This document shows, piece by piece, positions 4,165 through 26,693 of a stretch of DNA of 32,057 nt. The stretch's first letter is position 1, and each line of letters begins with the position of its first letter. Source of the DNA: a virus; IMG/VR virus record IMGVR_UViG_3300029893_000046, positions 1 to 32,057 of that record; one strand, 5' to 3'. The notes beneath the pieces are model-generated. The model worked only from the letters and a program-made list of their open reading frames with translations, was not told the DNA's origin and did no database searches. A program made the position numbers and the translations under genes.

Positions 4165-4194
4165 TGTCCAGTTTTTTAGTAAATAAACTGGACA
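4165..4194. promoter_or_regulatory. 30-bp dyad, copy 1 (TGTCCAGTTT / AAACTGGACA)
   Basis: Perfect 10-bp inverted arms are separated by a 10-nt A+T-rich spacer (TTTAGTAAAT). It abuts the stop codon of the 4195-4500 gene and lies about 20 bp upstream of the next start codon. No T-run follows on the minus strand, so it is not an ordinary intrinsic terminator. The same arms with the same spacing recur at 26664-26693. It could be an operator, an RNA hairpin controlling the next gene, or an RNase III site. Confidence 0.7.
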
Positions 4195-4500
4195 TTATTC
4201 ATTCACCGCTTTACCATCACACGTATAGCGGCCACCAAACAATAATTGCTTTCTCACAATTCTTTCTACTATCCGGTCAATAAAAGCCTCAGAATTAATA
4301 TACTTAGCGACCTGCTCCGCCAAACGCTTCTCGAAACTTATAGCAACGGCTTCTATAATTACCTCTCTAATTTCATTAGATTTAAAATCTTCGCCCAGGA
4401 ATTCATTTGTATAAGCAGTTACTTCGCGCGTTAGGTGCCCTCCCAGGAATATTAGTTGGAATGCTCGTACAATCGTTTTTTTAATTCTAGCTTCAAACAT
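4195..4500 (-). CDS. Hypothetical protein, early operon (101 aa)
   Basis: I do not recognise this protein. It is helical, with a hydrophobic stretch around residues 10-23 (VRAFQLIFLGGHL) and an alternating charged helix at about 45-85 (EIREVIIEAVAISFEKRLAEQ). Arg-, Glu- and Ile-rich repeats suggest an oligomeric helical bundle. It follows the 4510-4953 gene by 9 bp, and its stop directly touches the dyad at 4165-4194. It has no Cys pairs or evident HTH. Position in the operon suggests a role near replication, but that is only inference. Confidence 0.6.
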   Translation of the reverse strand: MFEARIKKTIVRAFQLIFLGGHLTREVTAYTNEFLGEDFKSNEIREVIIEAVAISFEKRLAEQVAKYINSEAFIDRIVERIVRKQLLFGGRYTCDGKAVNE

Positions 4501-4509
4501 AACTCCTCC

Positions 4510-4953
4510 CTATTGGTTAACTACTTTTTTATAGTCTATTATCTCGCTCCTCAGTCCGTCAATACCCCTTAGGAGCTTCTGGATTATTGTATTATCTTCA
4601 ATCTCCAATATCCAGTCCGGATGATAATTCAAAAACAGAATAAGCAGCGCACGGTAAACCGCGTAAAGATCCGTAAGCGTGTGAGTAATACCCTTAATTA
4701 TATTTTTCGGATTTCCGCCGGGCCTTTTGTTCGCGCTTAAATGGAATACTCTGCCATGCAGAATGTATCTCAGCAGGTAATGCTTATCATGCCTGGGACC
4801 CAGTTTAATTTTCTTCTCAATAATTCTTAAGTCCCATCCGTCGGCAACGCCCTCGCTCTGCAGTATCTCTTTCTTTAGTTTATAAAATTCAGCTTTAGCC
4901 AGGTAGCTGCCGGAGTCGCAGAGACAGAAATAATCAAACAGTTTAGGATGCAT
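4510..4953 (-). CDS. Hypothetical protein, early operon (147 aa)
   Basis: I do not recognise this protein. It is mixed alpha/beta and rich in aromatic and basic residues. It begins MHPKLFDYFCLCDSG, with two Cys close together near the N terminus, then a basic middle (LGPRHDKHYLLRYILHGRVFHLSANKRPGG within about 52-80). A hydrophobic helix around 90-112 (TLTDLYAVYRALLILFL) may pack in a core rather than span a membrane. Its start overlaps the end of the 4943-5209 gene by 11 bp, so translation is coupled. Confidence 0.6.
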   Translation of the reverse strand: MHPKLFDYFCLCDSGSYLAKAEFYKLKKEILQSEGVADGWDLRIIEKKIKLGPRHDKHYLLRYILHGRVFHLSANKRPGGNPKNIIKGITHTLTDLYAVYRALLILFLNYHPDWILEIEDNTIIQKLLRGIDGLRSEIIDYKKVVNQ

Positions 4954-5209
4954 TAGGCAGATCCTCTTCCTTACTCAGCGTAATTACAAGCGGTTCTTTA
5001 TCGTGCCTCTCCTCAAATCCGGTTCCCAGTATTTTTCTGCCGAGCTCGCGGATCTGCTTTTCCGCATTCACTAAATATTGATTGTACTCATCCAGATACT
5101 TTCTTAATATTTCATGTTTTATTCTTTCCCTTGCAAACTCGCTGCCAAGGTTAGCGTCCTTAAAACGTTCCAGAGTTTCGATAATTACTTTTCCAAGTCC
5201 CATGTTCAC
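4943..5209 (-). CDS. Hypothetical helical protein (88 aa)
   Basis: I do not recognise this protein. It is almost wholly helical and charged, with a likely coiled coil across residues 24-58 (Arg/Lys/Glu/Leu alternation). A good ribosome binding site (AAGGAG) precedes the ATG. The gene is the first after the strong hairpin terminator at 5225-5264, only 15 bp away. There is no room for a promoter between the two, so this gene and those below it (primase, helicase) depend on read-through, antitermination or a promoter within coding sequence. Confidence 0.6.
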   Translation of the reverse strand: MNMGLGKVIIETLERFKDANLGSEFARERIKHEILRKYLDEYNQYLVNAEKQIRELGRKILGTGFEERHDKEPLVITLSKEEDLPNAS

Positions 5210-5224
5210 TCCTTATCTTTAATT

Positions 5225-5264
5225 AAAATAAACGCCGGGCACGTTAGGGCGGACGCACCCGGCG
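5225..5264 (-). terminator. Intrinsic terminator or attenuator in the early operon
   Basis: On the minus strand an 11-bp G+C-rich stem (CGCCGGG and CCCGGCG, extended by two G-U and two G-C pairs) closes a 10-nt loop and is followed by TTTATTTT. This has the form of a rho-independent terminator. It lies between the 5406-5747 gene and the 4943-5209 gene, splitting the early operon upstream of the replication genes. That arrangement would suit delayed-early control by antitermination. Confidence 0.75.
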
Positions 5265-5272
5265 CCGTGGGG

Positions 5273-5350
5273 TTATTCAACCTTAGCGGTTGAAAACTTT
5301 TTATCTACCATCCGGGCTATCTCCTTCTTTTGCTCTATAGCAAGTTTCAC
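5273..5350 (-). CDS. Possible 25-aa leader peptide, GTG start
   Basis: A short open frame starts at GTG with AGGTGA about 8 nt upstream. It encodes a basic peptide (VKLAIEQKKEIARMV then DKKFSTAKVE). Its stop is 9 bp before the terminator stem at 5264. An upstream in-frame GTG at 5362 would give 29 aa. A short peptide directly before a terminator could act as a leader in attenuation. The amino acid content does not point to a specific amino acid. Evidence is weak and chance is possible. Confidence 0.3.
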   Translation of the reverse strand: MKLAIEQKKEIARMVDKKFSTAKVE

Positions 5351-5405
5351 GGCTCGTTTCACCTGCGGAAGTAATAACCGGTCTCAAGATTTCTTATAAT
5401 TATCT

Positions 5406-5747
5406 TCATGCTAATTTTTCCAGATTGTATTCCGGATCTTCATTTTTCTTTCTCGCCATCCGTTTAAGTATCAGGTAACCTATCAGGTCCAGCTCCGCGT
5501 CCTCGTCATCGTCAAGTTTTAATTTTTTCTGCTGTTCAATTCTGGAAAGCTTATCGTCAATCCTTACATTCAGCTGCTCTATCGCGTCCGATCCGGAAAA
5601 GATTCTTTTCGGTTCAAGCGCGCTGTTTCCGTATTTGGCATTTTTTAATAACAGCATAGAACGGAGCTCTACCAATACGCGGTCCACCGCGGATAAAAAT
5701 TCAGTTCTGGTCTTTTCAAGCTCGGCAATCTTCTCTTTCCCCATCAT
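5406..5747 (-). CDS. Coiled-coil hypothetical protein (113 aa)
   Basis: I do not recognise a family with certainty. The protein is charged and helical: an N-terminal helix (KEKIAELEKTRTEF), a middle segment LLLKNAKYGNSALEPKRIFSG at about residues 32-52, then a coiled coil and an acidic DDDEDAELD patch around 78-86. The KYGNSALEP...F-type segment recalls small phage proteins described as nucleotide-modifying or DUF1599-like, in which similar words occur, but the catalytic context is not clear, so I assign no function. The start is ATGATG after GGGTGGA; either ATG may be used. Confidence 0.6.
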   Translation of the reverse strand: MMGKEKIAELEKTRTEFLSAVDRVLVELRSMLLLKNAKYGNSALEPKRIFSGSDAIEQLNVRIDDKLSRIEQQKKLKLDDDEDAELDLIGYLILKRMARKKNEDPEYNLEKLA

Positions 5748-5754
5748 TCCACCC

Positions 5755-5970
5755 TTATGCCGCGGCCGGTTTTCTGTGCCGCTGTACGAAAGGCCGGTGT
5801 ATGCTCATCACCCGCCCTCTATTATGAGCCGGACCTGTTCTGCGGTTGCTCGCAAGAACCTCGTGGGTGATAATATTAATAAGATCATATCCGTGGCGCT
5901 TCGCTTTTTCCTCAACGCCTTCATTTAACGGATGCACTCCAGCAAATACTTTTTTCCTTCCGCCCGGCAT
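5755..5970 (-). CDS. Basic hypothetical protein (71 aa)
   Basis: I do not recognise this protein. It is strongly basic, especially in its C-terminal third (HNRGRVMSIHRPFVQRHRKP, about residues 49-68), which could bind nucleic acid. The ATG follows the preceding small gene by one base, with GAGAGG upstream, as in other genes of this operon. It has no Cys and no membrane segment. The role is unknown. Confidence 0.5.
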   Translation of the reverse strand: MPGGRKKVFAGVHPLNEGVEEKAKRHGYDLINIITHEVLASNRRTGPAHNRGRVMSIHRPFVQRHRKPAAA

Positions 5971-5971
5971 T

Positions 5972-6148
5972 TTAACCTCTCAATAATTTTGTGATTGAAT
6001 TTTTTACTACTCTAAAGTAGATCTGAACTGCGCCCGCAATAATCTTTACAAGAGATGCGCCCCGCGTGAATTTCTTATACCGGATATTTTTATAATCATA
6101 TACGATCATAAACCTGTCCCGGTAGAGCTGATAAGTCGATACTGTCAT
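5972..6148 (-). CDS. Small basic hypothetical protein (58 aa)
   Basis: This small gene encodes a 58-residue basic protein beginning MTVSTYQLYRDRFMIVYDYK and ending in KLLRG. A strong ribosome binding site (GGGAGG) lies 5 nt before the ATG. Its ATG overlaps the stop of the 33-aa gene upstream (ATGA), and its stop is one base from the start of the 71-aa gene, so it fits the tight operon spacing. The middle (KIIAGAVQIYFRVV, about 35-48) may be an amphipathic helix. Function is unknown. Confidence 0.6.
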   Translation of the reverse strand: MTVSTYQLYRDRFMIVYDYKNIRYKKFTRGASLVKIIAGAVQIYFRVVKNSITKLLRG

Positions 6149-6246
6149 TTTAACCTCCCTCTATTTTTACGGTAGTAATCCATTGCAAAAGGATAAATGC
6201 AAACCAGAACTATTCCCGCCGCAACTATGTAATCAATCCCTGTCAT
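6145..6246 (-). CDS. Single-pass membrane peptide (33 aa)
   Basis: A 33-residue frame starts MTGIDYIVAAGIVLVCIYPF, with one clear hydrophobic span at about residues 5-21 followed by a basic tail (YYRKNRGRLK), so it should lie in the membrane with the C terminus inside. It is coupled on both sides: it overlaps the 6233-6373 gene by 14 bp and shares ATGA with the 58-aa gene. It is one of three tiny membrane proteins in a row. The role is unknown. Confidence 0.55.
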   Translation of the reverse strand: MTGIDYIVAAGIVLVCIYPFAMDYYRKNRGRLK

Positions 6247-6373
6247 CTTCATCTATCCCGAAAGCCATATTAAATACTCCGTCAATCCAGCTGCTCATCC
6301 TGCGCCCGATTTTAATTATGATAAAAACAGTTACCGCCACAAATCCCACAACAGCCGCAATCCATTTAAGCAT
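6233..6373 (-). CDS. Small membrane protein (46 aa)
   Basis: With the ATG at 6373 the product begins MLKWIAAVVGFVAVTVFIII, a single membrane span of about 17 residues. A basic stop-transfer KIGRR and an acidic end (DEDDRD) follow. I chose this start because GGAGG lies 9 nt upstream. In-frame ATGs at 6382 and 6415 have their SD-like sequence touching the codon. The gene overlaps its neighbours on both sides by 8-14 bp. Function is unknown; it may alter the host membrane or belong to an exclusion set. Confidence 0.5.
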   Translation of the reverse strand: MLKWIAAVVGFVAVTVFIIIKIGRRMSSWIDGVFNMAFGIDEDDRD

Positions 6374-6494
6374 CTTTTCCATCCTCCGGCTTCCCCTTAT
6401 GAAATCCCCTTTCATCCTCGTAACCCTCCGGAGCCCGGAACATCCAGTAGAGCATTACAATCCAGATACCGATCAGTATATAAACCAGCACCAT
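6366..6494 (-). CDS. Small membrane protein (42 aa)
   Basis: A 42-residue frame begins MVLVYILIGIWIVMLYWMF, a single hydrophobic span. A charged, soluble tail of about 22 residues follows (RAPEGYEDERGFHKGKPED). Its ATG shares a base with the stop codon of the lipoprotein gene (TAATG), so translation is coupled. It is adjacent to the lipoprotein and two other membrane peptides, which suggests a joint envelope role. That is inference from context only. Confidence 0.55.
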   Translation of the reverse strand: MVLVYILIGIWIVMLYWMFRAPEGYEDERGFHKGKPEDGKDA

Positions 6495-6901
6495 TACCCG
6501 CCTCCCTGGTCATGTTTTAAAAGTTTATTAACGTATTTAAAGCTGACCGCCTTAGTTCCGGAGTTATTAAATATATATCCTCCGGAAAGAATTCTGTCTC
6601 TGTAGAAAAGATTAAATGAAATGTTATACGAGCCAAAATAATTTCCGCTCATAATAAGCTGGGAACTAACCGCGTCGAACTTACCGGATAGCTCCGTGCT
6701 TACTCCCTGCCATTCCAGTGTCGCGGAAACACTCTTGTCGGTATGTTCTAATAATAAGATCATGCCGTTTTCATGATCCTCGTAGCGCGCGGATATATCC
6801 AGTTTATTTAACGGCCCATTCACCGCGTCGCATCCGGTAAACATAAAAGCCATCCAGGCAAAAAACAGAGCCAGAACAAAGCCGCATCCCAGTTTCCTCA
6901 T
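6494..6901 (-). CDS. Phage-encoded lipoprotein (135 aa)
   Basis: The N terminus MRKLGCGFVLALFFAWMAFM leads to FTGC, with Cys24 as a lipidation site of the signal-peptidase II type. The first part is therefore a lipoprotein signal, and the mature chain should be anchored to an envelope membrane. The mature part is beta-rich (for example ATLEWQGVSTELSG, MSGNYFGSYNISFNLFYRD), like a small barrel or sandwich. Phage lipoproteins in early regions are often superinfection-exclusion or receptor-blocking factors. No specific family is recognised here. The gene shares ATGA with the HTH gene upstream. Confidence 0.65.
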   Translation of the reverse strand: MRKLGCGFVLALFFAWMAFMFTGCDAVNGPLNKLDISARYEDHENGMILLLEHTDKSVSATLEWQGVSTELSGKFDAVSSQLIMSGNYFGSYNISFNLFYRDRILSGGYIFNNSGTKAVSFKYVNKLLKHDQGGG

Positions 6902-7185
6902 ACCGCCCTCCTTAAATTGCTTTTCATTGCCGGGTCTATCATTCCCTTTTTCAATAACTCTATAAGCTCGTCTCTCATATAGTACGCCTGGCCGAATAGG
7001 TCCACGCGTTTTTTAATCAGTCCTTTCATCTCCAGGATGCGCAGCTTTTCTTCGCCTATAACTAAAAATTTTTTCGCCTCGTTTCTGCTCAGCCGCGGTG
7101 TATCCGTCTTGCCGCTCTCAGCCATTGCTGCCAAAAGCTGCTCCATACTTTCCAGCCGCTTTATTATCTCCGCGCGCTCTTTCAT
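6898..7185 (-). CDS. Putative winged-HTH / excisionase-like DNA-binding protein (95 aa)
   Basis: After a short helical start, residues 31-80 read as a MerR/excisionase-like winged helix: LSRNEAKKFLVIGEEKLRILEMKGLI, then a turn with KKRVDLFGQAYYMRDELIELL. This layout (helix-turn-helix, then a beta wing with an aromatic YYMRDEL) is typical of small phage Xis-like or early regulatory proteins. With no integrase present, a regulator of early promoters is as likely as an excisionase. The ATG overlaps the upstream stop (ATGA). Confidence 0.55.
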   Translation of the reverse strand: MKERAEIIKRLESMEQLLAAMAESGKTDTPRLSRNEAKKFLVIGEEKLRILEMKGLIKKRVDLFGQAYYMRDELIELLKKGMIDPAMKSNLRRAV

Positions 7186-7484
7186 AATGCTTTCAATTCC
7201 CTGCCGTTTACTCTAAAAGCTCTCAGTTTGCTGAAAGTCCCGAAATACCTCATTACATGAAGCGCATTATTTTTAGGTTTACTTTTCAATCCTATCTTCA
7301 CCCACCAGGGATGCCCCACGGTTCTGAATTTGCTGGTCCTCTCCGGCTTCCATCCAATTCTCTTGCGCCTGCTTATAATTCTTTTCTGTTCTTTTTTAAT
7401 CACTTCTATGTTTGCTACTTCCGGTTCCTGCTTCTGTTTCCGGTTAAACGGATTCAGCTTTTTGAAAAAATTCATCTTAAACAT
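7182..7484 (-). CDS. Basic hypothetical protein (about 100 aa)
   Basis: The protein is very rich in Lys and Arg, especially KKEQKRIISRRKRIGWKPER in the middle, so nucleic-acid binding is likely. I chose the ATG at 7484, which has GGGAGGGG close upstream. An earlier in-frame ATG at 7505 adds seven residues but lacks a good site. The gene overlaps the 59-aa gene by 8 bp. No enzymatic motif is seen. Function is unknown. Confidence 0.5.
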   Translation of the reverse strand: MFKMNFFKKLNPFNRKQKQEPEVANIEVIKKEQKRIISRRKRIGWKPERTSKFRTVGHPWWVKIGLKSKPKNNALHVMRYFGTFSKLRAFRVNGRELKAL

Positions 7485-7656
7485 TTGCCCCTCCCGCATT
7501 ATCATTTTTCTTATATCTTTTAAAAATTATTCCCAGCGCGTATTTAATCCGGTATCTCAATTCCAGTCCGCTCAGCAGTCTTACGGCGTTGTTAAATTCT
7601 ATTCTGTAATTCCGCCTGGCGTATTTTCTCAACTTCTTTGCGATCGAATTATTCAT
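7477..7656 (-). CDS. Small basic protein (59 aa)
   Basis: This gene is coupled to its upstream neighbour by ATGA and overlaps the next by 8 bp. The product begins MNNSIAKKLRKYARRNYRIE and continues with LLSGLELRYRIKYALGIIFKRYKK, so it is basic, helical and probably amphipathic. Its placement inside a run of overlapping genes, filling an otherwise empty 148-bp gap exactly, supports it being real. Function is unknown. Confidence 0.55.
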   Translation of the reverse strand: MNNSIAKKLRKYARRNYRIEFNNAVRLLSGLELRYRIKYALGIIFKRYKKNDNAGGANV

Positions 7657-8204
7657 TTAACCAGCGTCTCCAGAGTTTTAATTTTATTTTTCAGCGCGCT
7701 TATTGCTTTCGCAACATCCTTCTTTTCATGCGGCATAAATTTTCCGTCGGCCAGCGCGCTCTTAATTTCTCCGCAGAGATTTCCGGCATTATCAGCAAGC
7801 TCCAGCGCGGAGTCTTTAATTTCTAGCTTTGAGTTATCCGGGATTCTTTTGTTCTCTACGTTTTCGAAACGTGAAATTTTTTCTTCGTGGTAAGCTATAA
7901 GAGGAGAATAATCATTAATGAAATAGCAAATATCGGCAAGGTCGTCTGCGCCCATCTTCATTCCGGTAACAGGATCCTGCTGGAACCAGTGCATTATCGT
8001 AGAGGCCTTTGGAGGTTTTTTGAATTCCAGTTTCCAATTCTTCTTAAATTCATTCTGCAGGAATATCCATACGTTAAATGTTTTTAATCCCTCCCGCCTC
8101 ACACGCGTTTGAAATTCTATGCACGCATTAAAAGCTACTTCTAAATAGGAGGATTGTTGCTGGTTTACTGAAAGATTGTTGATGATATGTAGCTGCCCTT
8201 TCAT
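7653..8204 (-). CDS. Putative phage regulatory protein, CII-like (183 aa)
   Basis: This helical protein has an N-terminal half that could hold a helix-turn-helix (KPPKASTIMHWFQ, then KMGADDLADICYFINDYSPLIAYHEE at about residues 63-105). The ADDLADICYFINDYSPLIAYH segment is similar in style to the phage CII/CP76 regulatory family, which activates early or lysogeny promoters. The C-terminal half is a charged coiled coil (about 125-180), probably for oligomerisation. It is the second gene of the early operon, as expected of a regulator. The family assignment is tentative. Confidence 0.45.
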   Translation of the reverse strand: MKGQLHIINNLSVNQQQSSYLEVAFNACIEFQTRVRREGLKTFNVWIFLQNEFKKNWKLEFKKPPKASTIMHWFQQDPVTGMKMGADDLADICYFINDYSPLIAYHEEKISRFENVENKRIPDNSKLEIKDSALELADNAGNLCGEIKSALADGKFMPHEKKDVAKAISALKNKIKTLETLVK

Positions 8205-8298
8205 TATTTTGCCCTCGAGTTAATTAGGAGGTTTCTATGTTTTCGCAAAAATTATTAATCGGTTTTAGAACCGGGCTATACATCGTTCCTCTCTATTA

Positions 8299-8517
8299 TT
8301 ATGCTGCTGATTGTTTTTGTTTTTCCTGCTGATAATTTTTCCAGCCCGCTCGAAATATCTCCGCTACCAGGTCGCGGATTTTGCATTGCCGCTTTATGCT
8401 CTCAATCTTTACGTCCTGATACTCCAGTCTGGTAAGTTCAAACGTCAATAATTTATATTGACTTTGAAGTTCTAGTTCGGTAAGTTTCTCTGTATTTTGT
8501 CCGTTCCCGTTTTTCAT
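8299..8517 (-). CDS. Small coiled-coil protein, first gene of the early operon (72 aa)
   Basis: The protein is charged and helical throughout, rich in Glu, Lys and Gln. It has a possible coiled coil (EKLTELELQSQYKLLTFELT, residues 10-29) and a Gln/Lys tail. I do not recognise it. As the first minus-strand gene after the divergent gap 8518-8561, it is probably immediate-early. A 94-bp gap follows before the next gene and contains a short dyad (CGGTT TTAG AACCG, 8260-8273) that might be an operator. Confidence 0.5.
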   Translation of the reverse strand: MKNGNGQNTEKLTELELQSQYKLLTFELTRLEYQDVKIESIKRQCKIRDLVAEIFRAGWKNYQQEKQKQSAA

Positions 8518-8561
8518 GTTCTTTATTTCACATAGTTGTTTATAATCTCAAAAGAAATATA
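8518..8561. promoter_or_regulatory. Divergent promoter gap
   Basis: This 44-bp A+T-rich gap separates the minus-strand early operon from the only plus-strand gene. A perfect TATAAT occurs on the plus strand at 8541-8546, placing a start site within about 10 nt of the plus-strand ATG, so that message would be almost leaderless. A convincing -35 box is not seen. The early minus-strand promoter must lie here or within the start of the plus-strand gene. Confidence 0.4.
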
Positions 8562-8915
8562 ATGCAATTACCACATATTGTCAAGAAAAAAAATAATGTA
8601 ATTACCACATTGAACCAAATTGAATTAATATTAGGTAGTGATTCGCCTATAAAAGTCATGCTAAAAGCCGATTTTTTGCATGATTTTGAGATAAAATTGC
8701 CTGAATACGGCAATAATGATTATTTGAATATTTCAAGCTTTTCTGAAAAGAAAGTTCATTACAAAGTAGATTTAGTAGCGTGTACTTGTTCGTGTCCTGA
8801 TTTTTCAAAAAACAGAATTATGTTTAGGAAAGGAAGTATTAAAAGGTTATGCAAACATCAAGAAAGCCCTACTCTGCCAATTCCATCGCTAACTTTACAG
8901 GATAGCACAGTTTAG
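8562..8915 (+). CDS. SWIM zinc-finger protein (117 aa), only plus-strand gene
   Basis: Residues 71-100 carry a SWIM-type zinc motif: VACTCSCPDF then LCKH, i.e. CxC, a spacer, CxH. SWIM domains bind DNA or proteins and often occur in larger helicases and transposases or as small stand-alone proteins. The chain ends about 20 residues after the motif in a Pro/Ser-rich tail, and its base composition is more A+T-rich than the surrounding operons. It reads opposite to the rest of the genome and in the same direction as the tRNA-Arg fragment 80 bp downstream, so both may be captured host DNA. The tail might be a product of fusion or truncation. Confidence 0.6.
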   Translation: MQLPHIVKKKNNVITTLNQIELILGSDSPIKVMLKADFLHDFEIKLPEYGNNDYLNISSFSEKKVHYKVDLVACTCSCPDFSKNRIMFRKGSIKRLCKHQESPTLPIPSLTLQDSTV

Positions 8916-8948
8916 GACACTTTTAAGGATTAGCGGACAGAGAGTAGG
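8868..8948. repeat. Imperfect inverted repeat at the end of the SWIM gene
   Basis: CCTACTCT (8868-8875) pairs with AGAGTAGG (8941-8948), and CGCTAA (8887-8892) pairs with TTAGCG (8930-8935), with unequal internal spacers. The structure spans the stop codon of the SWIM gene. No T-run follows. It could be a long-range hairpin or the remains of an insertion end; the evidence is modest. Confidence 0.35.
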
Positions 8949-8996
8949 AATAGCAGATATTAAGTTTATTGCGTATTTTCTAAATTTTCAGTACAT

Positions 8997-9041
8997 GCAC
9001 CTGTAGCTCAATTGGATAGAGCATCTGACTACGGATCAGAA
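8997..9041 (+). pseudogene. 5' half of tRNA-Arg(ACG), truncated (candidate att remnant)
   Basis: The sequence matches the canonical first half of a tRNA-Arg: acceptor GCACCTG, TA, D stem GCTC/GAGC with loop AATTGGATA, anticodon stem TCTGA/TCAGA and loop CTACGGA (anticodon ACG at 9031-9033). From 9042 it becomes unrelated A+T-rich sequence. No T arm or 3' acceptor strand is found anywhere nearby. This tRNA is a common integration target, and crossover in the anticodon region is usual. Phages normally carry the 3' half, so a 5' half is unexpected. Confidence 0.8.
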
Positions 9042-9340: not shown

Positions 9341-10972
9341 CTATCTTGTTGGATAACTCCCCTTTGTTTGGTCTGCGGTTGTTACATTACTGCCTGTTAA
9401 ATTATTTCCATTACCTGAATAATCCCGTAACATTTGAGTATCACTACTGCCCCTGAATTTATAATGAGCAACCTTCTCTGGTGTTCCGCCCGTTAAAGTA
9501 TTTGTAATTCCCAAGCGATTCATTGGCAACTGTAAATTGACAAAGTTCGACAAGGTTATATCAGTTAATCTATGAATATTACCCTCGCCAAGTTGCCCGT
9601 TAAAATAATCTGCCGAATTAAACCCTACACCTAAAGCTGTTGTGTGAATTATAGACCCCACACTCGCAAGAGATTGGGCTGACCCATCCGCAACACCATC
9701 TAAATATAATCGAGCATTACCCGTCGAATTGATAAACAATCCTGCAAGATGATAATTACCGTCCGTTACTGTTGCCGAACCCGTAACCGTTACTATTGTT
9801 GTCCCATCTCCAATTCTTGCTTCAAGTTTATTTGCAGTGCTCACATATAGTTCTATTCCTTTGCTCGATGCGAACCTACCAATAATCTGTTTCTTAGTTC
9901 CTGTTGTTGAGGTCTTAAACCATACATTCTTTGCCCTGTCAAATCGTTTCGTAAGACTCACATCATCAATGTAAATGTCGTCTGCCTGATTTGCGTATAT
10001 CTTTATCGGTTGGTTTACTTCATTTACTGTTGCCTGAAAGTTCCAGACGAATTTAGTGAATGTTCCGGGGAGACAGGATATATTTGTAATGGTTTTAGTT
10101 TGCCCGCCAATTACTGCTGTAACAGATGTTGTAATTGGTTGATATGATATGTCGTCGATCATAAAATTATCCCCAGATGCTGGACTCGATACATAGATAG
10201 AGGCAGTGTTTGAGTTGGTTCTTATTCGGAACTCATAATTCTGATATTCGGTAGTTAAATTAGGGTTGGCAATAGCCAAATATACATCATTCCCGTAACC
10301 AGCAAAATCAAAACCCTTCGTTGTTATTGTTGATGATTTTGCCTTGAAAGTTATTTTATAAGTAGTGCCCGCCACAACTGAATTATTAAGAAAAATTCCA
10401 AAAACTCCGCTTCCGCTTGTAAAATTTAATGTGATGTCTTGAGGTCCACTGTTCCAAACCTTACCACATTGATACGCACCCCAGCTACCTCCATCCGTAG
10501 CAAAGTTAGTATTATTGCCCGTTATTATATTGCTTCCCAGTATCCCCGTTCCCCTCGCCCAAAATTCAAAAGTGTATTTCTCGTAGATTGAATTAGCATC
10601 AGTTCCCAAAGCTGTAAACTTACCACTTGCAAGGGTTACATAGTTAGTCGTTGCATCACCCGCTGCAGAAGAAGTTATCTTGGCAGAATAAGTCCCTGTT
10701 TTTTTATCGGTAGAACTTTGAGCTATTGAGTGATTACCCGCACCTGTCCAATCGCCAACACTTGTTTCAAAGCCCCCGTTGGTCTGTGTCGTTATCCGTT
10801 CTGTTCCGTTCAGGTCTAACTTACTCGGTGAACTCTTACTCATATATTCAGTCGAACCGTCTAAATCAACGGCACTTCCCCGAATCAGTTTCTTGTCAAG
10901 CATCTTAGTCAGGTTGCTTTGTGCAAGCAACCCAACACTAAAAAGTATCAATAAGAACAATATCTTTTTCAT
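9341..10972 (-). CDS. Exported LamG/carbohydrate-binding adhesin-like protein (543 aa)
   Basis: The N terminus (MKKILFLLILFSVGLLAQSN) is a clear Sec signal peptide. It is followed by beta-rich modules: a jelly-roll carbohydrate-binding-like stretch at about residues 50-330 with repeated NxxFE/VGDWTGAGNHS-type motifs, and a LamG/concanavalin-like domain at about 345-470 (LYVSTANKLEARIG, LYLDGVADG, LGVGFNSADYFNG). Such folds bind glycans and are common in phage tail fibres and secreted adhesins. I chose ATG 10972 because GGGGGTG precedes it and the signal peptide then starts at residue 1; ATG 10984 is the alternative. A signal peptide is odd for a virion protein assembled in the cytoplasm. Confidence 0.7.
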   Translation of the reverse strand: MKKILFLLILFSVGLLAQSNLTKMLDKKLIRGSAVDLDGSTEYMSKSSPSKLDLNGTERITTQTNGGFETSVGDWTGAGNHSIAQSSTDKKTGTYSAKITSSAAGDATTNYVTLASGKFTALGTDANSIYEKYTFEFWARGTGILGSNIITGNNTNFATDGGSWGAYQCGKVWNSGPQDITLNFTSGSGVFGIFLNNSVVAGTTYKITFKAKSSTITTKGFDFAGYGNDVYLAIANPNLTTEYQNYEFRIRTNSNTASIYVSSPASGDNFMIDDISYQPITTSVTAVIGGQTKTITNISCLPGTFTKFVWNFQATVNEVNQPIKIYANQADDIYIDDVSLTKRFDRAKNVWFKTSTTGTKKQIIGRFASSKGIELYVSTANKLEARIGDGTTIVTVTGSATVTDGNYHLAGLFINSTGNARLYLDGVADGSAQSLASVGSIIHTTALGVGFNSADYFNGQLGEGNIHRLTDITLSNFVNLQLPMNRLGITNTLTGGTPEKVAHYKFRGSSDTQMLRDYSGNGNNLTGSNVTTADQTKGSYPTR

Positions 10973-14048: not shown

Positions 14049-15872
14049 TTACAATCTTGTTTGCAGTTTAAGTTCAATATCCGCTTCACCCGTTGTTATT
14101 GTACCGCTCTTTGTAATTACCGCTTTAAGCGCCTGTTGAGTTGCATAATCTTTATAGACCGGAATAGTTATTAAATTATTATCCTGGTCCCAAATAATCG
14201 TATCGGAGTATTCAATCACGCCGTCATTATCCTCAAGCTGAAAAGCTGTTACATTATTAAACCCTGTCACGAAATACATATTAACAACGGTCAACCGGAA
14301 ACCCGCTTCAATATTCTTTAAAGTTACCGGAGAAGCATTTGCATCCGAAGCAATAACTTTTGCGTTGAAAGAATATTCTTTTAAGTAACCGCCCGGTAAT
14401 ACAGATGCAAATGGTTTAGGCGGAGCGTCGCCCGTATCCGGCGTATTATCCTCCATTACCGCCGTTACCGGAAGCGCCTCTATATAGCTCTCGTTCTTGC
14501 TCAGTTTTTTACGCAATGTTAGTATCTGATATCCCTTCCCGTCGTAGCTGAAATCTTTCATATAGCTGTAATCAATCCCCTCTACCAGAAACTGATCAAC
14601 GCGCCCTATAGTGCTGGTAACTCCGCCGGATGGAACAAGCTTATTTCTGTTCCTCAGGTTGTAATAAAAATTAGCCACAGTATTATGCAGACTGTTGCCG
14701 CCTGTTATTAAAGGCACTTTAGCGCTCCCCGCGGTATAAGTAACAGTGTTATGTACAAAAGTCATATCCCCGTAATCCACGCCGGAACTTGTATAACAGA
14801 ATACAGGAATCTCCTTGTCTATTATGCTTTCTCCTCTCAGCTCGCTTCCGGAAGGTACTATTCCGTACCGCGCCATCCTCTCGCCGTAAGCATTCTTGCC
14901 GCTTCTCGGTTCCCGGTATAGCAGCCGGCTCACTATTCTCACCGCCTCAACATCGCCGAACATATTCTGCACTTTATGACTCTTTACAGTTCCCAGCGTC
15001 TGGGTGTTGGAAGCATCGTAGTAAAAAAGGTCCTTAACAAACGCCTCATCATCCGTAATAAAACCGCAGATAAATCCGAATGCAAAAGCGTACGCCATCA
15101 AAAGGTCATACAGGGATTCTAACTGGTAAAGCTTGTCTATGGAAAAGAATAAAGCGCTCAGGTAATTGGAATTGAATGTTAGATCCTCCAGGGATTTATA
15201 TACAGGAGGCGGATCTCCGGCTCCCTGCTGATTGCTGGAAAAAACCCAGTTATGCTGCCAGGTTAAAGTAGCGCTGCTGTTTACTTGTTTTAATATCTCA
15301 TGTATCAGCGTTTTTACGTTTACAGGGTCAGCGGTATAAACGTCTCCGCTAACAGAATAAGAAAGAGAAAGAGGGTTTAATCCGCTCAGCCTACCATCGC
15401 TCAGCTGCTCATATAAATAGATAGTCTTTAATAAATCCGTTTTAGGGTATGCGCTGAAATCCATTACTCTGTTTGTTTTATCCCAGCCTATATCGGTCAT
15501 AGATAAATATCCCACATACTCAGTAGTGTAATTTGTGTCCCCGTAATATTTTATCTCCAGAGTTACCTTTGCGTCTTTTCTTACATAAGGAACAAGCGCG
15601 CCCTCAAATATCAGATCAGCAAGCTCATCCTCGCTATCCTGCACGCTGAATTTCATATTGCCGGGCACCATTAAATTCTCATCCAGCTCCCTCTTCCATT
15701 CAAGCTCTCCCCAGTCAATCAGCCGTATTCCGTAATCCGGCGCAAAATGCTCCGCGTCCGTTCCGGTATCCTCTATGGTAAACTCGAGCGCCATTCTTAT
15801 AAGATGGTTACCTCCTACGGATTCTCCAACATCCAGCGCCTGCCCGAATTTATATGTAATCGTATAAGCCAT
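14049..15872 (-). CDS. Tail tip / tail-associated protein (607 aa)
   Basis: This protein directly follows the tape measure (TAATG), where siphoviruses encode distal-tail and tip proteins. The N-terminal 150 residues are beta-rich, with DYGIRLIDWGELEWKRELDE followed by a split-barrel-like KFSVQDSEDELADLIFEG. The middle (about 190-300) is mixed, and the C-terminal third again consists of beta domains. No catalytic peptidase motif is seen. It is likely a hub or tip component that attaches the fibres encoded downstream. Family recognition is weak and rests mainly on position and length. Confidence 0.65.
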   Translation of the reverse strand: MAYTITYKFGQALDVGESVGGNHLIRMALEFTIEDTGTDAEHFAPDYGIRLIDWGELEWKRELDENLMVPGNMKFSVQDSEDELADLIFEGALVPYVRKDAKVTLEIKYYGDTNYTTEYVGYLSMTDIGWDKTNRVMDFSAYPKTDLLKTIYLYEQLSDGRLSGLNPLSLSYSVSGDVYTADPVNVKTLIHEILKQVNSSATLTWQHNWVFSSNQQGAGDPPPVYKSLEDLTFNSNYLSALFFSIDKLYQLESLYDLLMAYAFAFGFICGFITDDEAFVKDLFYYDASNTQTLGTVKSHKVQNMFGDVEAVRIVSRLLYREPRSGKNAYGERMARYGIVPSGSELRGESIIDKEIPVFCYTSSGVDYGDMTFVHNTVTYTAGSAKVPLITGGNSLHNTVANFYYNLRNRNKLVPSGGVTSTIGRVDQFLVEGIDYSYMKDFSYDGKGYQILTLRKKLSKNESYIEALPVTAVMEDNTPDTGDAPPKPFASVLPGGYLKEYSFNAKVIASDANASPVTLKNIEAGFRLTVVNMYFVTGFNNVTAFQLEDNDGVIEYSDTIIWDQDNNLITIPVYKDYATQQALKAVITKSGTITTGEADIELKLQTRL

Positions 15873-21488: not shown

Positions 21489-21492
21489 TTTA

Positions 21493-21804: not shown

Positions 21805-21848
21805 TTATTTCGGTCCCGTCAAAAATTTTACTTAGTAAATTTTTTATG

Positions 21849-22028
21849 CTACTTATTTTTTTTTTCGGGCTTCTTTTCAACTTCTTCTTTAATCTCTGCC
21901 GCAAGCTTTCTGCCTATAAGGTCCTTTGCGGCGGATGGCGTATCCTCAAACTTATCGCCCGGCTTTACTTCAATTCCGCGGGAAAAAAAAGTCCGGCTGT
22001 AGATGCTTTTTAATTTTACAAGTTCCAT
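21849..22028 (-). CDS. Small protein in the gpFI position (59 aa)
   Basis: I chose the ATG at 22028 because AGGTGACGAG precedes it. The ATG at 22079 has no ribosome binding site. The product starts MELVKLKSIYSRTFFSRGIE, passes through PGDKFEDTPSAAKDLIGRKL, and ends in a Lys/Glu-rich tail. Small proteins with this FxPGxxFxDxxxxA..LI style often follow capsid genes in siphoviruses. Role unknown, possibly a head-completion accessory. Confidence 0.55.
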   Translation of the reverse strand: MELVKLKSIYSRTFFSRGIEVKPGDKFEDTPSAAKDLIGRKLAAEIKEEVEKKPEKKNK

Positions 22029-22130
22029 CTCGTCACCTAATCTGTTTTTTATTAAATATGAATTTTCTGTAGTCAGCATTTTAAATCAGGAGCGGATTTT
22101 TATCCGCTCCCCGAATGTTCTTACGATCGA

Positions 22131-24014
22131 TTAATTAACGCCTGTAGCTACGGCGAATGCGCCTGCGTTTCTTACGCCTACGTCAACGTAGATGAATACT
22201 GTAACGCGGATATATCCGCTGGTTGAGTAAGTGTAAGGATCTACTACTATATCCAGTCCGTTCCATCTGGCTTTAATTGCCTGGCTGAAATCGCCGAAGA
22301 AAATATATCCAGTTGAAATCTGGTTGCTTACTTTACACGGATAACCGTTCATCTGGTTTCCTTCCCAGATAAATTGAGGATAACCGGAGACTTTTTCGCG
22401 TGTCTTTAATGTACCGCGGATTGTCGCGTTTGTTACATAGAACATAGATGCGACGTCAAGATTAGCTGCTGCCACATCAGTTTCGAGCGATACAATACCT
22501 GAGTAATCAATTCCGGGCTTGCTTCCGCCGCCTATTCCGGACGCGAGCGCAATACCTGTAGGCTGTCCGCTGGCTCCTGTTCCGTGGAAGAATGCAAGAT
22601 CCTCACCTATTGCCGCAATCTTTGCCAGGTCGTTTTCTACCAGCATATCAATTGATGGAGTTGCCTGCAATAAAAGTTTTCTGCTGAACGCGGTGTTCGA
22701 TGTTCCGAGTTTTGGTGTTAAGCTTACCTGGTCGAATGTCATATCTGTGCCGGCAGGTCCGGATACTTCGCTGGACATCCAGCTGAATGTTCCGGCGCCT
22801 GTCTGTTTCGGGATTAATACGTCGCCTACCAGTCCGTCTAATGTCATTGCGCCTAACTGATCGCTCACGGCTTTATTCCGCACCATCTCAATAAAATTCT
22901 GCGGAAGTAGATTATCGGCTACCAGATACCCGCCTGCTGTAGTAGTTGAGGTTACTAATGTTCTTTCTCTTAAAAGAATGTCAGTAGGTACCAGCATTCC
23001 CTGAGGCGTTACGCCTAATTTCTTTGCGTATTCCCGGCAGGTCTCTAATTCAAAGTCAGCTTTAACGCCGCTCTTAGGATCCTGCGACATAATTAAATTT
23101 CTGAATGAGAATTTCTTTACTTCTTTAGGAGTTAATCCTAACTGTACGCCGCCAGCAGGCTGCTGATCTGCTAAATTGCGGATGATCAGTTTCTGGAAAT
23201 CTCCCTGGTCTGCTTTCAGCTTAAACGCGAAATCATCGGCAAGCTGAATTAAATCGACACCCTTAACCTTATCCTTAAAATCGCGGGCCATTGTTATAAT
23301 TCCGTGAACGTTCAATAACGCTTTTTCACCGCCGTCCTGAATTGCGCGGTCCACGGCTGCCTGTTTGTCTGCAGATACCTCTTTCTTTATCTGCGATGTT
23401 AATGCGGCAATCTCCTGCTCGCTTAACGTTCTTTCCTGAGTGTTTGTTACCGGATCCATTACTTTCTCCTTTTGATTATTATTTAATTGTTCGTTTATAT
23501 TTAAATTTCTGTCCACTCCTACCGTAGGGTCCGCGGGGTCCGGCGTAAATGCAACGTGAACCGGTTCCCAGTCCGTTACGCGGTAATATTCCGTATCGCC
23601 TTCAATACGGTCAAGAACAATTTCATGCACCATGTACCTTATAGATACGTTCCGCCGGATGCCGTCAATTATGTCCTGGAAATAATCCTGAGCCCGCTGG
23701 CTCTTGCTGAACTTTAAAGTGCATCTAAGTTTTCTCTGCTCAGTGTCAAGCTGTACTTTCTCAATAACACCGATCTGATCACCCCAATGATCATCACGTA
23801 CGCTAGCTCCGTCTTTAAACCTGTCCAGGCGTATCGAATTCCGTTTGTGATCCAGAATCTCAAAGCCGTACCAGTTCCTAACCGGGTATTCGCTTGAGAC
23901 TGATAATTCTACCGTCCGGTCCGCTTCGTTTATCGTCCGCTGTTCCGGCTCCGTCCTCAGAGTCCTCTCCATCTGTTTTTGATGGAGTTCCTGTTTCAGT
24001 TTTAGCAGTTCCAT
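22131..24014 (-). CDS. Prohead protease - major capsid fusion (627 aa)
   Basis: The first ~170 residues are a U35/HK97-type prohead protease: VRDDHWGDQIG with His76 and GIRRNVSIRYMVHE with Ser124 fit the catalytic pair. A Gln/Asn-rich linker follows (about 171-185), then a delta-like helical region and the HK97-fold coat protein (about 310-627), with ERTLVTSTTTAGGYLVADNL and VDPYTYSTSGYIRVTVF segments. The start ATG has GAGG 7 nt upstream, and the gene overlaps the portal gene by 137 bp. A second strong start inside (ATG 23459, residue 186) probably makes free coat protein of 442 residues. Confidence 0.9.
   Translation of the reverse strand: MELLKLKQELHQKQMERTLRTEPEQRTINEADRTVELSVSSEYPVRNWYGFEILDHKRNSIRLDRFKDGASVRDDHWGDQIGVIEKVQLDTEQRKLRCTLKFSKSQRAQDYFQDIIDGIRRNVSIRYMVHEIVLDRIEGDTEYYRVTDWEPVHVAFTPDPADPTVGVDRNLNINEQLNNNQKEKVMDPVTNTQERTLSEQEIAALTSQIKKEVSADKQAAVDRAIQDGGEKALLNVHGIITMARDFKDKVKGVDLIQLADDFAFKLKADQGDFQKLIIRNLADQQPAGGVQLGLTPKEVKKFSFRNLIMSQDPKSGVKADFELETCREYAKKLGVTPQGMLVPTDILLRERTLVTSTTTAGGYLVADNLLPQNFIEMVRNKAVSDQLGAMTLDGLVGDVLIPKQTGAGTFSWMSSEVSGPAGTDMTFDQVSLTPKLGTSNTAFSRKLLLQATPSIDMLVENDLAKIAAIGEDLAFFHGTGASGQPTGIALASGIGGGSKPGIDYSGIVSLETDVAAANLDVASMFYVTNATIRGTLKTREKVSGYPQFIWEGNQMNGYPCKVSNQISTGYIFFGDFSQAIKARWNGLDIVVDPYTYSTSGYIRVTVFIYVDVGVRNAGAFAVATGVN
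23457..23470 (-). promoter_or_regulatory. Internal ribosome binding site and ATG in the capsid gene
   Basis: Within the fusion gene the minus strand reads AAAAGGAGAAAGTAATG, with AGGAG 6 nt before an in-frame ATG at 23459. This is at least as good as the site of the full-length start, and it lies exactly at the protease-coat junction. A nested product beginning MDPVTNTQERTL should therefore be translated, as for lambda C/Nu3-type nested genes. Confidence 0.75.
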
Positions 24015-25515
24015 TTGTTACCTCTATTCCGTATTTCTTTTCTAATTCTTTTTCCTTGCTTTTATCCCTCAGTATATCCTCGTAACGGTTCCCCATTTCG
24101 GATACTATCTGAGTTTTGGATTTATAACCAGCGTCCTCGGCCTCTTTATTCGCCATTACTTCTTTCTGCATATCCACCCACGGCCTTACATATCCCTGCC
24201 AGTAATGCTCTTTATATTTTTCAACCAATCCGTATTTTAAAGGAGCGATTGCGTCATTAAGCAATGCGTATTTAAGCCACTCCTCATAAACCGGTATTAA
24301 AATCTGCTCTCTTATAATTGCCTGCATGTATGCGTAAGCGCCGCGCATCTTCAACTCCCCTGTACGCCCGGATGAGTAGCTCTCGCTCTCGCGGTCTCCG
24401 AATAACGCCGCGTAATCCCTTCCTATTCCGGATGCGATTTTTCTTCCGTTGCTTCTTACAAACGGCTGATGCTGTTCGTGCGGAAATTTAGGATCGTAAC
24501 CCATAAACTCCCATCCGGCAGGCAGTTCCTCAATCGATGCGGGATCCATATCCATATATTTTCCGCCCGCGGAATCCGCTTCCTCTTCATTCCCCTCACT
24601 GTTAGTTGCGCCGGTATATTCAGCGAATGAATCAACCGGCTTTTTCAAAAACCCCATTTTAGAGGCGCCCGCTTTAGCGTTCTGCAGGGAATACTCCTCC
24701 CACATATCTACATCTTTCAAAGTGGTCATTACAGGGGCAAGCGGGGTTATGCCGTGTATCTGTTTGTAGTTTAGAGGGTCATACGCAATTATTAATTCGC
24801 TTACCGGAATTCTTACCCGCCTTAAGTAAGCAGAATAGCCCAAAGTTACTTCCTGGTAAACAGATTTCTCTTTTATCCAGATCGCCTGCAGTCTCCTCAG
24901 CTTATCCACTTCAATTCCCATCAGCACAAAATTTCCGGTTGCAAGCTCCTCGTTATAATCGTGGTCTATATCGTTAGGGTCTATTACCTCTAATGTGAAT
25001 CCGAATGGATTTCCTTCAACGGCAGAGCCGCTGAACCATTTTCTTAAAATTACTTCCCCGTCTAGAAAAAGCTGATCTACCAAAAGGTACTGCAGCATAA
25101 GAAAAGACAATCTTTGCGAGGCGGTGCAGTAATCCCTGTGGCCCCACTTGTCAAATCCTTTCTTTATTACATCCTGTGCAACTTCGTCATCCCGTCCGTC
25201 CGGGTATCGCGCCATCGGCTGCAGATCAAATCCGCTCGGACCTATTACGTTCATCCTGTTATCAAAACAGGCGCCCGCTACAATCGGGTTATTCTGGCGC
25301 ATCTCAAACGTGCGCGCGCGCAGCGCCGGAAGGTCGCTCTTAATCTCCTTATTTATCTCCGCGCGTGTCCTTGTCCAGGTATTTCTTAATCGGCTGTCCA
25401 GCGCCGCTTTCCAGCCGCGGAAATGCGCGGCTTTTTCAGCCGCGTTCATTTCCATTTTCACCTGTTTCCCGGTCCTTAAGCCGATTGAGTTTAATATTTT
25501 ATCTATCGCTCTCAT
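23878..25515 (-). CDS. Portal protein, lambda gpB family (545 aa)
   Basis: This forms the dodecameric DNA gate at one capsid vertex. The N-terminal NNPIVAGACFDNRMNVIGPSG, GFTLEVIDPNDIDHDYN and HGITPLAPVMTTLKDVDMWEEYSL segments, and WEFMGYDPKFPHEQHQPFVR, match the lambda-type portal family (PF05136). The last ~70 residues are Glu/Lys- and Ser/Gly-rich. They overlap the capsid gene in another frame by 137 bp, so the portal C-terminus and protease N-terminus share DNA. The ATG is 8 bp after the preceding stop. Confidence 0.9.
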   Translation of the reverse strand: MRAIDKILNSIGLRTGKQVKMEMNAAEKAAHFRGWKAALDSRLRNTWTRTRAEINKEIKSDLPALRARTFEMRQNNPIVAGACFDNRMNVIGPSGFDLQPMARYPDGRDDEVAQDVIKKGFDKWGHRDYCTASQRLSFLMLQYLLVDQLFLDGEVILRKWFSGSAVEGNPFGFTLEVIDPNDIDHDYNEELATGNFVLMGIEVDKLRRLQAIWIKEKSVYQEVTLGYSAYLRRVRIPVSELIIAYDPLNYKQIHGITPLAPVMTTLKDVDMWEEYSLQNAKAGASKMGFLKKPVDSFAEYTGATNSEGNEEEADSAGGKYMDMDPASIEELPAGWEFMGYDPKFPHEQHQPFVRSNGRKIASGIGRDYAALFGDRESESYSSGRTGELKMRGAYAYMQAIIREQILIPVYEEWLKYALLNDAIAPLKYGLVEKYKEHYWQGYVRPWVDMQKEVMANKEAEDAGYKSKTQIVSEMGNRYEDILRDKSKEKELEKKYGIEVTNGTAKTETGTPSKTDGEDSEDGAGTADDKRSGPDGRIISLKRIPG

Positions 25516-25523
25516 CCCGCGGC

Positions 25524-25991
25524 TTAGTTATTCTTTTTCCACGGAATGTAAAGCTCGTACTGTGCGTAAGTATCGGATCTGTTACCTGCGGTGCCGGTAA
25601 TCTTAAATCTGTAATAAGCCGCCTTTTTGGAATTCAGATTAAGCGTACCGTCTCCCAGCGTTTCAGTGGAATCCGCGTTTACGCTCACTGTATCGACGGT
25701 AAAATAATTTGTAAGGTCGTTGGTCCCCTGCAGTATGCAGAGTATTCTCGGCTTGCCGGCAGTGCTGGAAAGTTTCCGCGTATAATAAATCGGATAACTT
25801 GCCGTAAGCTGGTAATCGTATCCGCTCAGCGTAAACGGAGTGCTGTAAACTGTATCCGTAGAATCGATACTTGTTGATGGGAATTTCAACAGCAGCGCCT
25901 TGCCGCCGAACTCGTTTTTTGTTACGGATGTCTGCCCGAATGCTGTAACTGCCAGCAATAAAAACACAATTGCAAATAATGCGCGTTTCAT
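25524..25991 (-). CDS. Exported beta-rich protein between gpW-like and portal genes (155 aa)
   Basis: It has a Sec signal peptide (MKRALFAIVFLLLAVTAFGQ) followed by a Thr/Ser/Asp-rich beta chain (PFTLSGYDYQLTASYPIYYT, TVDTVSVNADSTETLGDG) ending YELYIPWKKN. In lambda the gene between W and the portal would be absent, so this is an insertion in the head operon. It could be a head decoration protein whose signal is not used, or a secreted or periplasmic moron. The family is unknown. Confidence 0.6.
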   Translation of the reverse strand: MKRALFAIVFLLLAVTAFGQTSVTKNEFGGKALLLKFPSTSIDSTDTVYSTPFTLSGYDYQLTASYPIYYTRKLSSTAGKPRILCILQGTNDLTNYFTVDTVSVNADSTETLGDGTLNLNSKKAAYYRFKITGTAGNRSDTYAQYELYIPWKKNN

Positions 25992-26011
25992 ATTAATGCT
26001 CCTTTTATTTT

Positions 26012-26539
26012 TTATTCTGAAAATCTTGATAAATATCTTTTATTCTGCCCGGTTCTTTTTCCGGTTTCAATTTCCATCTGCACCTTTGCGTTCTGCAAAT
26101 CTCTCAAAAGTTTAGTCCGGTCCTCGTATGTAACGGATACTCCGTTAATGTTTACGGATACCATATTCCGCGTTGCCATTTCTTTGTAAGCCGCAAGAAG
26201 GGATTCATAAATGATTGTCCAGTCACCCCGGGCGTCTGTGGTTTCCGCAAGGTTAGGAAGGAGCGTAATTTGTCCCCGCTCCACCAGATAATCAATGCTG
26301 CTTAAGGTTGCTACGATCTGGTAAGAATATAATCCGTGGGATTTATTCGTAGTTGTAGAGTCTGCGGTAAAATCATAATCGTCTCCGTCCGCTACTCCGG
26401 TTAAAGATAATTTGTTCGTGGAATCTTTATAGAAATGAATTTTTAAAGTATAGCCGTCCGATGCCTTATAATCAGCAAAGCTTTCGGTCCAGCTCCACCC
26501 TGTTTTTACGATCAGTTTTTTTGTCTTTAGAACACTCAT
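26012..26539 (-). CDS. gpW-like head-tail connector with N-terminal extension (175 aa)
   Basis: The C-terminal ~55 residues have the gpW pattern: AYKEMATRNMVSVNINGVSV, then YEDRTKLLRDLQNAKVQMEI. The N-terminal ~110 residues are a beta-rich Ig-like domain (TGWSWTESFADYKASDGYTL) that could decorate the structure. It is the first head gene before the portal, as W is in lambda, though a signal-peptide gene lies between. The ATG lacks a clear Shine-Dalgarno and follows the palindromic gap. Confidence 0.6.
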   Translation of the reverse strand: MSVLKTKKLIVKTGWSWTESFADYKASDGYTLKIHFYKDSTNKLSLTGVADGDDYDFTADSTTTNKSHGLYSYQIVATLSSIDYLVERGQITLLPNLAETTDARGDWTIIYESLLAAYKEMATRNMVSVNINGVSVTYEDRTKLLRDLQNAKVQMEIETGKRTGQNKRYLSRFSE

Positions 26540-26584
26540 GCGCGCGTTTTATAATTTCCACTGCAAAAGTGTTTTTAATTGAGG

Positions 26585-26620
26585 TAATTATCATTCGTAT
26601 TTTTATACGAACAATAATTA
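26585..26620. promoter_or_regulatory. Long imperfect palindrome (TTCGTAT core) before the head genes
   Basis: TTCGTAT TTTT ATACGAA (a 7-bp stem with 4-nt loop) is flanked by TAATTAT and ATAATTA, giving 14 of 16 base pairs over 36 bp. It lies in the 158-bp non-coding gap 26540-26697. The region also holds an A+T-rich segment close to the gpW-like start. It is a plausible promoter or operator for head genes, or an mRNA hairpin. No T-run follows. Confidence 0.6.
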
Positions 26621-26663
26621 CTATACTGCTATTGGCTGAAATGAATATGGGTAGTATTGTCCA

Positions 26664-26693
26664 TGTCCAGTTTCTTTAATAAAAAACTGGACA
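26664..26693. promoter_or_regulatory. 30-bp dyad, copy 2 (TGTCCAGTTT / AAACTGGACA)
   Basis: It has the same 10-bp arms and 10-nt spacing as the copy at 4165-4194; the spacer is CTTTAATAAA. It lies 4 bp after the stop codon of the 26698-26988 gene and upstream of the head-gene start. A minus-strand T tract is not present. Two copies, one in each operon, suggest a common regulator. Confidence 0.7.

Follow-up and report, generated by a model that had tools for sequence, protein, structure and literature searches.

We analyzed a 32,057-nucleotide stretch of viral DNA (IMG/VR record IMGVR_UViG_3300029893_000046, positions 1 to 32,057; the whole stretch is called the window here) that carries, at two distant sites, a 30-bp inverted repeat (dyad) which we present as a putative operator of host AbiE toxin-antitoxin operons. 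As an earlier sequence-only reading of the window had noted, both dyads are perfect copies of TGTCCAGTTT-N10-AAACTGGACA. Copy 1, TGTCCAGTTT-TTTAGTAAAT-AAACTGGACA, occupies positions 4165 to 4194, and copy 2, TGTCCAGTTT-CTTTAATAAA-AAACTGGACA, occupies positions 26664 to 26693; no strand was assigned to either. The arms are identical and the spacers differ. Shuffling (100 shuffles) gave no match even when up to 3 mismatches were allowed, in agreement with the view that chance duplication is unlikely. Both dyads stand just 3′ of minus-strand stop codons, copy 1 at 0 nt and copy 2 at 4 nt. The stop codon that abuts copy 1 belongs to an open reading frame (ORF) of 101 amino acids (positions 4195 to 4500), and 19 nt past the dyad begins a 150-amino-acid ORF (3693 to 4145), downstream of which lie a transfer RNA (tRNA) gene, tRNA-Met with anticodon CAT (3613 to 3687; ARAGORN), and replication genes encoding a DNA primase (2385 to 3605; phrog_47, 1.5e-33) and a helicase (PHROGs). 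Copy 2 lies between the end of a 96-amino-acid ORF (26698 to 26988) and the head genes; the first ORF past it encodes a head-tail joining protein (26012 to 26539; PHROGs phrog_5774, 2.3e-12). All features given in this paragraph with coordinates, apart from the dyads, are on the minus strand, and the 101-, 150-, and 96-amino-acid ORFs had no family match in Pfam, PHROGs, or PADLOC.

The 101- and 96-amino-acid ORFs next to the two copies are unrelated, with no alignment between them, and outside the dyad no similarity is evident in the flanks; given these differences and the different spacers, a recent duplication of the dyad is not apparent. A T-run is absent 3′ of both copies, so neither has the stem followed by a T-run of an intrinsic terminator, and no AbiEi homologue was found in the window with tblastn. 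The single relative reached via the window terminase (L243, 42% identity; L numbers denote loci and G numbers genomes) has no dyad in its 17.9 kb, and the primase gave partial matches only, at 34 to 36% identity. Terminase matches at 30 to 35% identity were present in 4 of 277 genomes, and an antitoxin search of all 277 led to genomes already in the 395-genome set described below. Elsewhere in the window, positions 28010 to 28786 encode a phrog_2045 protein, a family listed without known function.

As a check, the sequence-only reading had suggested looking in related phages for the arms with N10 spacing and for conservation of position. The exact pattern of the window (C-type) was found in 117 IMG/VR stretches, compared with 0 for scrambled arms of the same design and 0 for the true arms with an 11-nt spacer; the arms and spacing recur, but no gene class was found that would predict where. 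Grouped by flanking DNA, the 118 C-type sites in viruses formed 50 clusters, and since some clusters share proteins, they are not all independent. Exactly one site (≤3 mismatches) was present in 50 of 50 virus records tested, always a perfect copy as the selection demands, and the window and L081 have two sites each, with the second L081 site 5 kb from the first. The suggestion that the dyad coordinates early and late expression was therefore rejected, given these single copies and the lack of a gene-class rule.

The same exact pattern was sought in GTDB genomes and found in at least 120 stretches; the chromosomal counts that follow rest on the matches listed. Among 80 listed titles, the carriers were mostly Bacteroidota in the wide sense (including Ignavibacteriales and Balneolaceae), and a few were Desulfobulbales-like, Calditrichota, or labelled Actinomycetota. 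In ORF clustering, 93 of 120 genome loci had a member of one gene family close to the dyad, and 70 of 120 had a member of a second. The first is DUF6088 in Pfam and AbiEi in PADLOC (1.2e-59), and the second is AbiEii in both (PADLOC, 4.7e-96). With tblastn, which also detects broken or miscalled antitoxin genes, an AbiEi antitoxin was located within 300 bp of 104 of 124 chromosomal sites and elsewhere in the locus for 3; none was found for 17. Most neighboring antitoxin ORFs (69 of 92, 3 of the 92 being viral) begin 28 to 33 nt from the dyad, and a TAnnTTTG box, the −7 element of Bacteroidetes promoters, follows the dyad at 5 to 9 nt towards the antitoxin gene in 60 of 89 host operators and is found ≤15 nt away on the opposite side in 2 of 89. 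A predicted model of the antitoxin (predicted local distance difference test score, 85) had as its top solved folds 1zel (Rv2827c), the best match, and 6y8q (AbiEi of Streptococcus agalactiae). Comparison of the antitoxin sequence with the PDB gave no useful match, and NCBIfam returned TAA_AbiEi at an E value of 0.0083 for 1 of 10 members only, no useful identification. By sequence and fold the protein groups with AbiEi and Rv2827c, with an AbiEii nucleotidyltransferase encoded alongside, and the chromosomal copies are inverted repeats in the promoters of AbiEi-AbiEii operons. When plasmid spread was considered, PLSDB yielded a single full-length match, at 83% identity.

In a less selected sample of 395 GTDB Bacteroidota genomes, two of which (the center genome G051 and G066) had been known beforehand to contain a site, 22 antitoxin genes matched the family profile. 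The 14 genes closest to the profile (subfamily 1) all had a TGTCCAG dyad ~30 bp upstream, 13 of them within 2 mismatches of the C-type pattern. Seven of the 8 more distant genes instead had TGTCAAGT-N14-ACTTGACA, in one case with an altered first letter; this sister operator, TGTCAAGTWW-N10-WWACTTGACA, is referred to as A-type. All 7 exact A-type sites in the 395 genomes were within 100 bp of an antitoxin gene; 6 of the 8 exact C-type sites were at antitoxins, and 13 of 25 C-type places with ≤2 mismatches were at subfamily-1 antitoxins. A simple sequence code ties AbiEi subfamilies to their operators. Both types were observed upstream of one antitoxin gene in G093 (L294 and L436) and in G045 (L102); L102, L236, and L168 are the three divergent antitoxins omitted from the antitoxin alignment (A1). 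At five chromosomal C-type sites without an adjacent subfamily-1 antitoxin (L120, L130, L155, L223, and L168), the neighbors, named by eye, resemble type I restriction or AlbA_2-type proteins, and given these loci AbiEi may control other defense genes.

The search fixed the arms and left the spacer positions free, so the spacer provides a fair test of a protein-binding site versus a hairpin. Positions 12 and 19 are T and A in 55 of 61 distinct viral copies and in 47 of 49 distinct host copies; the window spacers do differ, as the sequence-only reading had observed, but the spacer is not free. Of the 61 distinct viral copies, 11 have complementary letters at positions 11 and 20 (30.7 expected; P = 2e-7) and 50 do not; of the 49 distinct host copies, 17 do (24.4 expected). 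The shared pattern indicates that phage and host copies follow one code, which opposes a longer hairpin. In arms, spacing, and spacer code the phage copies thus match the chromosomal operators, and on these sequence comparisons the dyad is very probably an AbiEi-type operator. These comparisons lend strong support to the earlier proposal that a dimeric DNA-binding protein recognizes the dyad, though the predicted binder is host AbiEi and not one of the phage's own regulators (the HTH, CII-like, and RHH-like products). The latter were judged unlikely binders because tblastn found no AbiEi homologue in the window and the motif also occurs in unrelated phages.

The virus copies rarely adjoin antitoxin genes and are therefore mostly solitary copies rather than abiE loci. 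Four of 118 virus sites (L043, L081, L098, and L102) had an antitoxin gene, or the part of one encoding the N terminus, at a distance of ≤300 bp, and neither window copy had one. DUF6088 was encoded in 2 of 50 virus records searched over their full length; many of these records are fragments, which limits the weight of an absence. In L043 (site at 4190 to 4219) and L081 (2945 to 2974), the operator lies 29 to 30 nt before a 96-amino-acid ORF whose match to AbiEi is confined to the N-terminal part and which is possibly a phage-encoded repressor without the antitoxin domain. One record is that of an isolated phage, Tenacibaculum phage Gundel_1, which carries an exact site at positions 15295 to 15324, in a 65-nt gap between genes 33 and 34. 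Phage pT24 carries a symmetric variant, AGTCCAG...CTGGACT (at one of two places viewed), and Maribacter phage Colly_1, a partial BLAST match, has one arm only.

The A-type operator, read from host promoters and then sought in viruses, was found in at least 120 stretches compared with 1 for its control. These stretches formed 60 flank clusters and had an antitoxin in one locus; a BLAST query with the A-type pattern had no full match in named phages. The two types rarely share a record: A-type (≤1 mismatch) was present in 1 of 41 C-type records, namely one with a full abiE, and C-type was present in 1 of 22 A-type records. A further dyad, GTTCACG-N4-CGTGAAC, was observed in five loci (L433 at 2078 to 2095, L370, L379, L432, and L314), in some near the same gaps, and is perhaps the operator of another host regulator.

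Host AbiEi most likely binds the phage dyads, judging from the motif. By a slight preponderance we favor, as the whole explanation, an operator copy of a host AbiE (type IV) operon that would act in trans as a decoy. The phage site, carried without an antitoxin gene, would be bound by the host antitoxin-repressor AbiEi; genome replication would multiply the sites, one high-affinity site for each genome copy, and titrate AbiEi off the abiE promoter. The derepressed operon would then make fresh antitoxin, which would keep the toxin leashed when infection disturbs the cell. We infer the binding by AbiEi, the benefit to the phage, and which way the toxin is affected. In S. agalactiae, AbiEi is reported to repress its own operon via inverted repeats, with a Kd of 10 to 30 nM, and its C-terminal domain alone to be enough for antitoxicity (PMC3985639). 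A phage site multiplied by replication should draw AbiEi off its promoter.

In its chromosomal setting the dyad resembles the S. agalactiae abiE operator: each is an inverted repeat within the promoter of an antitoxin-toxin operon under autoregulation, and the arms of both start with TGT and end in a T-run (TGTTGCTTTTA in S. agalactiae and TGTCCAGTTT in the dyad); the S. agalactiae arms are 11 bp long and separated by 27 bp (they belong to two 23-bp repeats that have 3 bp between them), while those of the dyad are 10 bp long and 10 bp apart (PMC3985639). Unlike the S. agalactiae operator, the phage copies are mostly without abiE genes. Mycobacterium tuberculosis Rv2827c, an antitoxin of the AbiEi kind, also recognizes inverted repeats in the promoter that drives it; unlike the dyad, its operator comprises two pairs of 23-bp repeats with 13-bp gaps within pairs, and the portion of that account used here mentions no phage copies of it (PMC7319586). 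RNA anti-CRISPRs (Racrs), which are solitary CRISPR repeats, offer another parallel, in which a phage carries a lone recognition element of a host defense; Racrs reportedly act as RNA on Cas proteins, whereas the dyad is proposed to be a DNA operator of a repressor-antitoxin (PMC10651486). The operators of AbiE operons are a known kind of site; no description of them as solitary, recurrent elements in unrelated phages was found in searches of open-licence full text. LexA boxes in phages are bound by a host repressor, as is predicted for the dyads, and lie within phage promoters; unlike them, the viral dyads are without the promoter arrangement seen at host operators.

The main rival is control in cis, in which host AbiEi bound to the dyad would keep transcription from reaching the phage genes that follow, by repression or as a block; these genes would then track the antitoxin level and would rise, for example, when AbiEi is lost and the toxin is free. 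Placement of the sites bears directly on this rival (ORFs were called by a simple script, and the placement classes are thus approximate). C-type sites are noncoding in 40 of the 47 clusters not at contig ends, compared with ~21% for random positions, and A-type sites in 37 of 50. Same-strand gene pairs hold most C-type sites (31 of 50 clusters, with 4 in convergent and 5 in divergent gaps), many of them directly past a stop codon, a good spot for a roadblock, and copy 1 of the window heads a block with tRNA and replication genes. However, the orientation classes are like those in random noncoding DNA, and same-strand C-type sites show no pull to the downstream start (96 versus 95 nt); A-type sites show no median shift towards stops (91 versus 96). 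The commonest protein family next to the site occurs in at most 5 of 50 clusters, on varying sides and at varying distances, and the TAnnTTTG promoter box is present in 1 of 96 viral flanks (both sides of 48 clusters without an antitoxin), so that site position follows no gene class or promoter box found.

Proximity to tRNA genes would also suit control in cis, and MenT relatives of AbiEii reportedly modify tRNA. Five viral copies (L059, L042, L093, L067, and L086) have a tRNA gene no more than 25 nt away, and two of the five are flanked by tRNAs on both sides; these come from 13 loci picked mostly for tRNA-like flanks. With ARAGORN, 3 of 50 clusters were near a tRNA gene, compared with 0.86 expected and a largest value of 3 in 2,000 draws. 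A link to tRNA genes was considered and appeared weak. Overall, we regard control in cis as the whole explanation as rather unlikely. Free placement, type switching (see below), and the lack of a promoter box favor an effect in trans, while the single site per genome and the stop-codon placement keep control in cis open; for the narrower choice of a decoy over control in cis, our judgment is evenly balanced.

When flanks were compared, 32 pairings of a C-type with an A-type cluster proved to have similar DNA. Of five pairs that were aligned, two showed a clear switch (L021/L370 and L088/L372) and one was doubtful (L019/L379). In L021/L370, the two types occupy the same gap, 18 and 27 nt past the same gene (protein 80% identical). 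In L088 (C-type, 1454 to 1483) and L372 (A-type, 10935 to 10964), the dyad lies inside a shared ORF with the peptide SSL--KKLD, and the arms differ by one synonymous change each, TCC/TCA (Ser) and CTG/CTT (Leu); by sequence, the change appears to be at the DNA level, with the protein kept. Operator copies inside a 693-amino-acid ORF were also observed in L007 and L100. These switches weigh against the idea of a remnant or shuttle, in which phages would have captured abiE modules, or fragments of their promoters, again and again, and the dyads would be what was left over or the seams of recombination. The four virus contigs that keep an antitoxin or its N-terminal part beside the site are what such capture would leave, but for the other 114 of 118 sites the surrounding 300 bp yielded no antitoxin, the promoter box is almost absent, the spacer code is retained, and both arms change together in related phages, once synonymously within an ORF, which is hard to explain for a remnant. 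We therefore consider this origin improbable.

An RNA hairpin or terminator at gene ends, akin to the structured RNA element suggested by the sequence-only reading, is more improbable still. The arms alone do fold as RNA, at −12.6 to −17.3 kcal/mol, stop codons are near to C-type sites, and the C-to-A switch preserves base pairing too. Against this, the pair at positions 11 and 20 that would extend the stem is avoided, the T-run is missing after both window copies, scrambled palindromes of the same design gave only 0 and 1 matches, and in chromosomes the motif occupies the operator position of a repressor gene. A tyrosine recombinase core site of the dif or att kind can be all but dismissed: two arms flank a short center and some phages have tRNA genes nearby, but an integrase was found in only 3 of 49 site-bearing records (many of them fragments), and the chromosomal copies are located in antitoxin promoters.

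Several observations weigh against the decoy. In the 395 genomes, 12 of the 25 C-type places with ≤2 mismatches are off antitoxins, comprising 2 exact sites (G209 and G066) and 10 with 2 mismatches. Five of the latter share the form TGTGCAG...CTGCACA; this variant, TGTGCAGTTT-N10-AAACTGCACA, has 5 copies in 4 genomes (G219, G131, G115, and G177) and may belong to another regulator. In most of the 32 pairs of C-type and A-type clusters, the sites are at different places, and L109/L314 and L113/L317 show no in-place switch. Five relatives reached via the L021 gene have in this gap a C-type site, an A-type site, a 1-mismatch C-type site, another dyad, and nothing recognizable; the first two were known beforehand, and the three not picked through the motif indicate that phages lose the site readily. 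Over the full records of the last two, no C-type or A-type match with ≤1 mismatch was found. Sites called inside ORFs make up 7 of 47 for C-type and 13 of 50 for A-type, and same-strand C-type sites lie a median of 28 nt from the upstream stop, compared with 105 nt in the null, a closeness that a roadblock or RNA function could also explain. ACTTGACA contains a −35 box of the sigma-70 kind, and a part of the viral A-type matches may therefore be promoter sequences. Binding of the dyad by AbiEi is itself a prediction, one site per genome is few for a sponge, so that a decoy would depend on genome copy number, and sequestration of the antitoxin could instead free the toxin. Accordingly, the most specific form of the decoy, a single DNA decoy per genome against a toxin-antitoxin defense with the position-5 letter switched from C to A in both arms to match the AbiEi subfamily of the hosts, is tentative, and we place it somewhat below an even chance.

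If the decoy reading is true, phage DNA would be in direct contact with the repressor of an abortive-infection system, which would bear on how AbiE systems are sensed or silenced. The dyad is a short, removable element and is thus suited to testing the contact between phage and AbiE.

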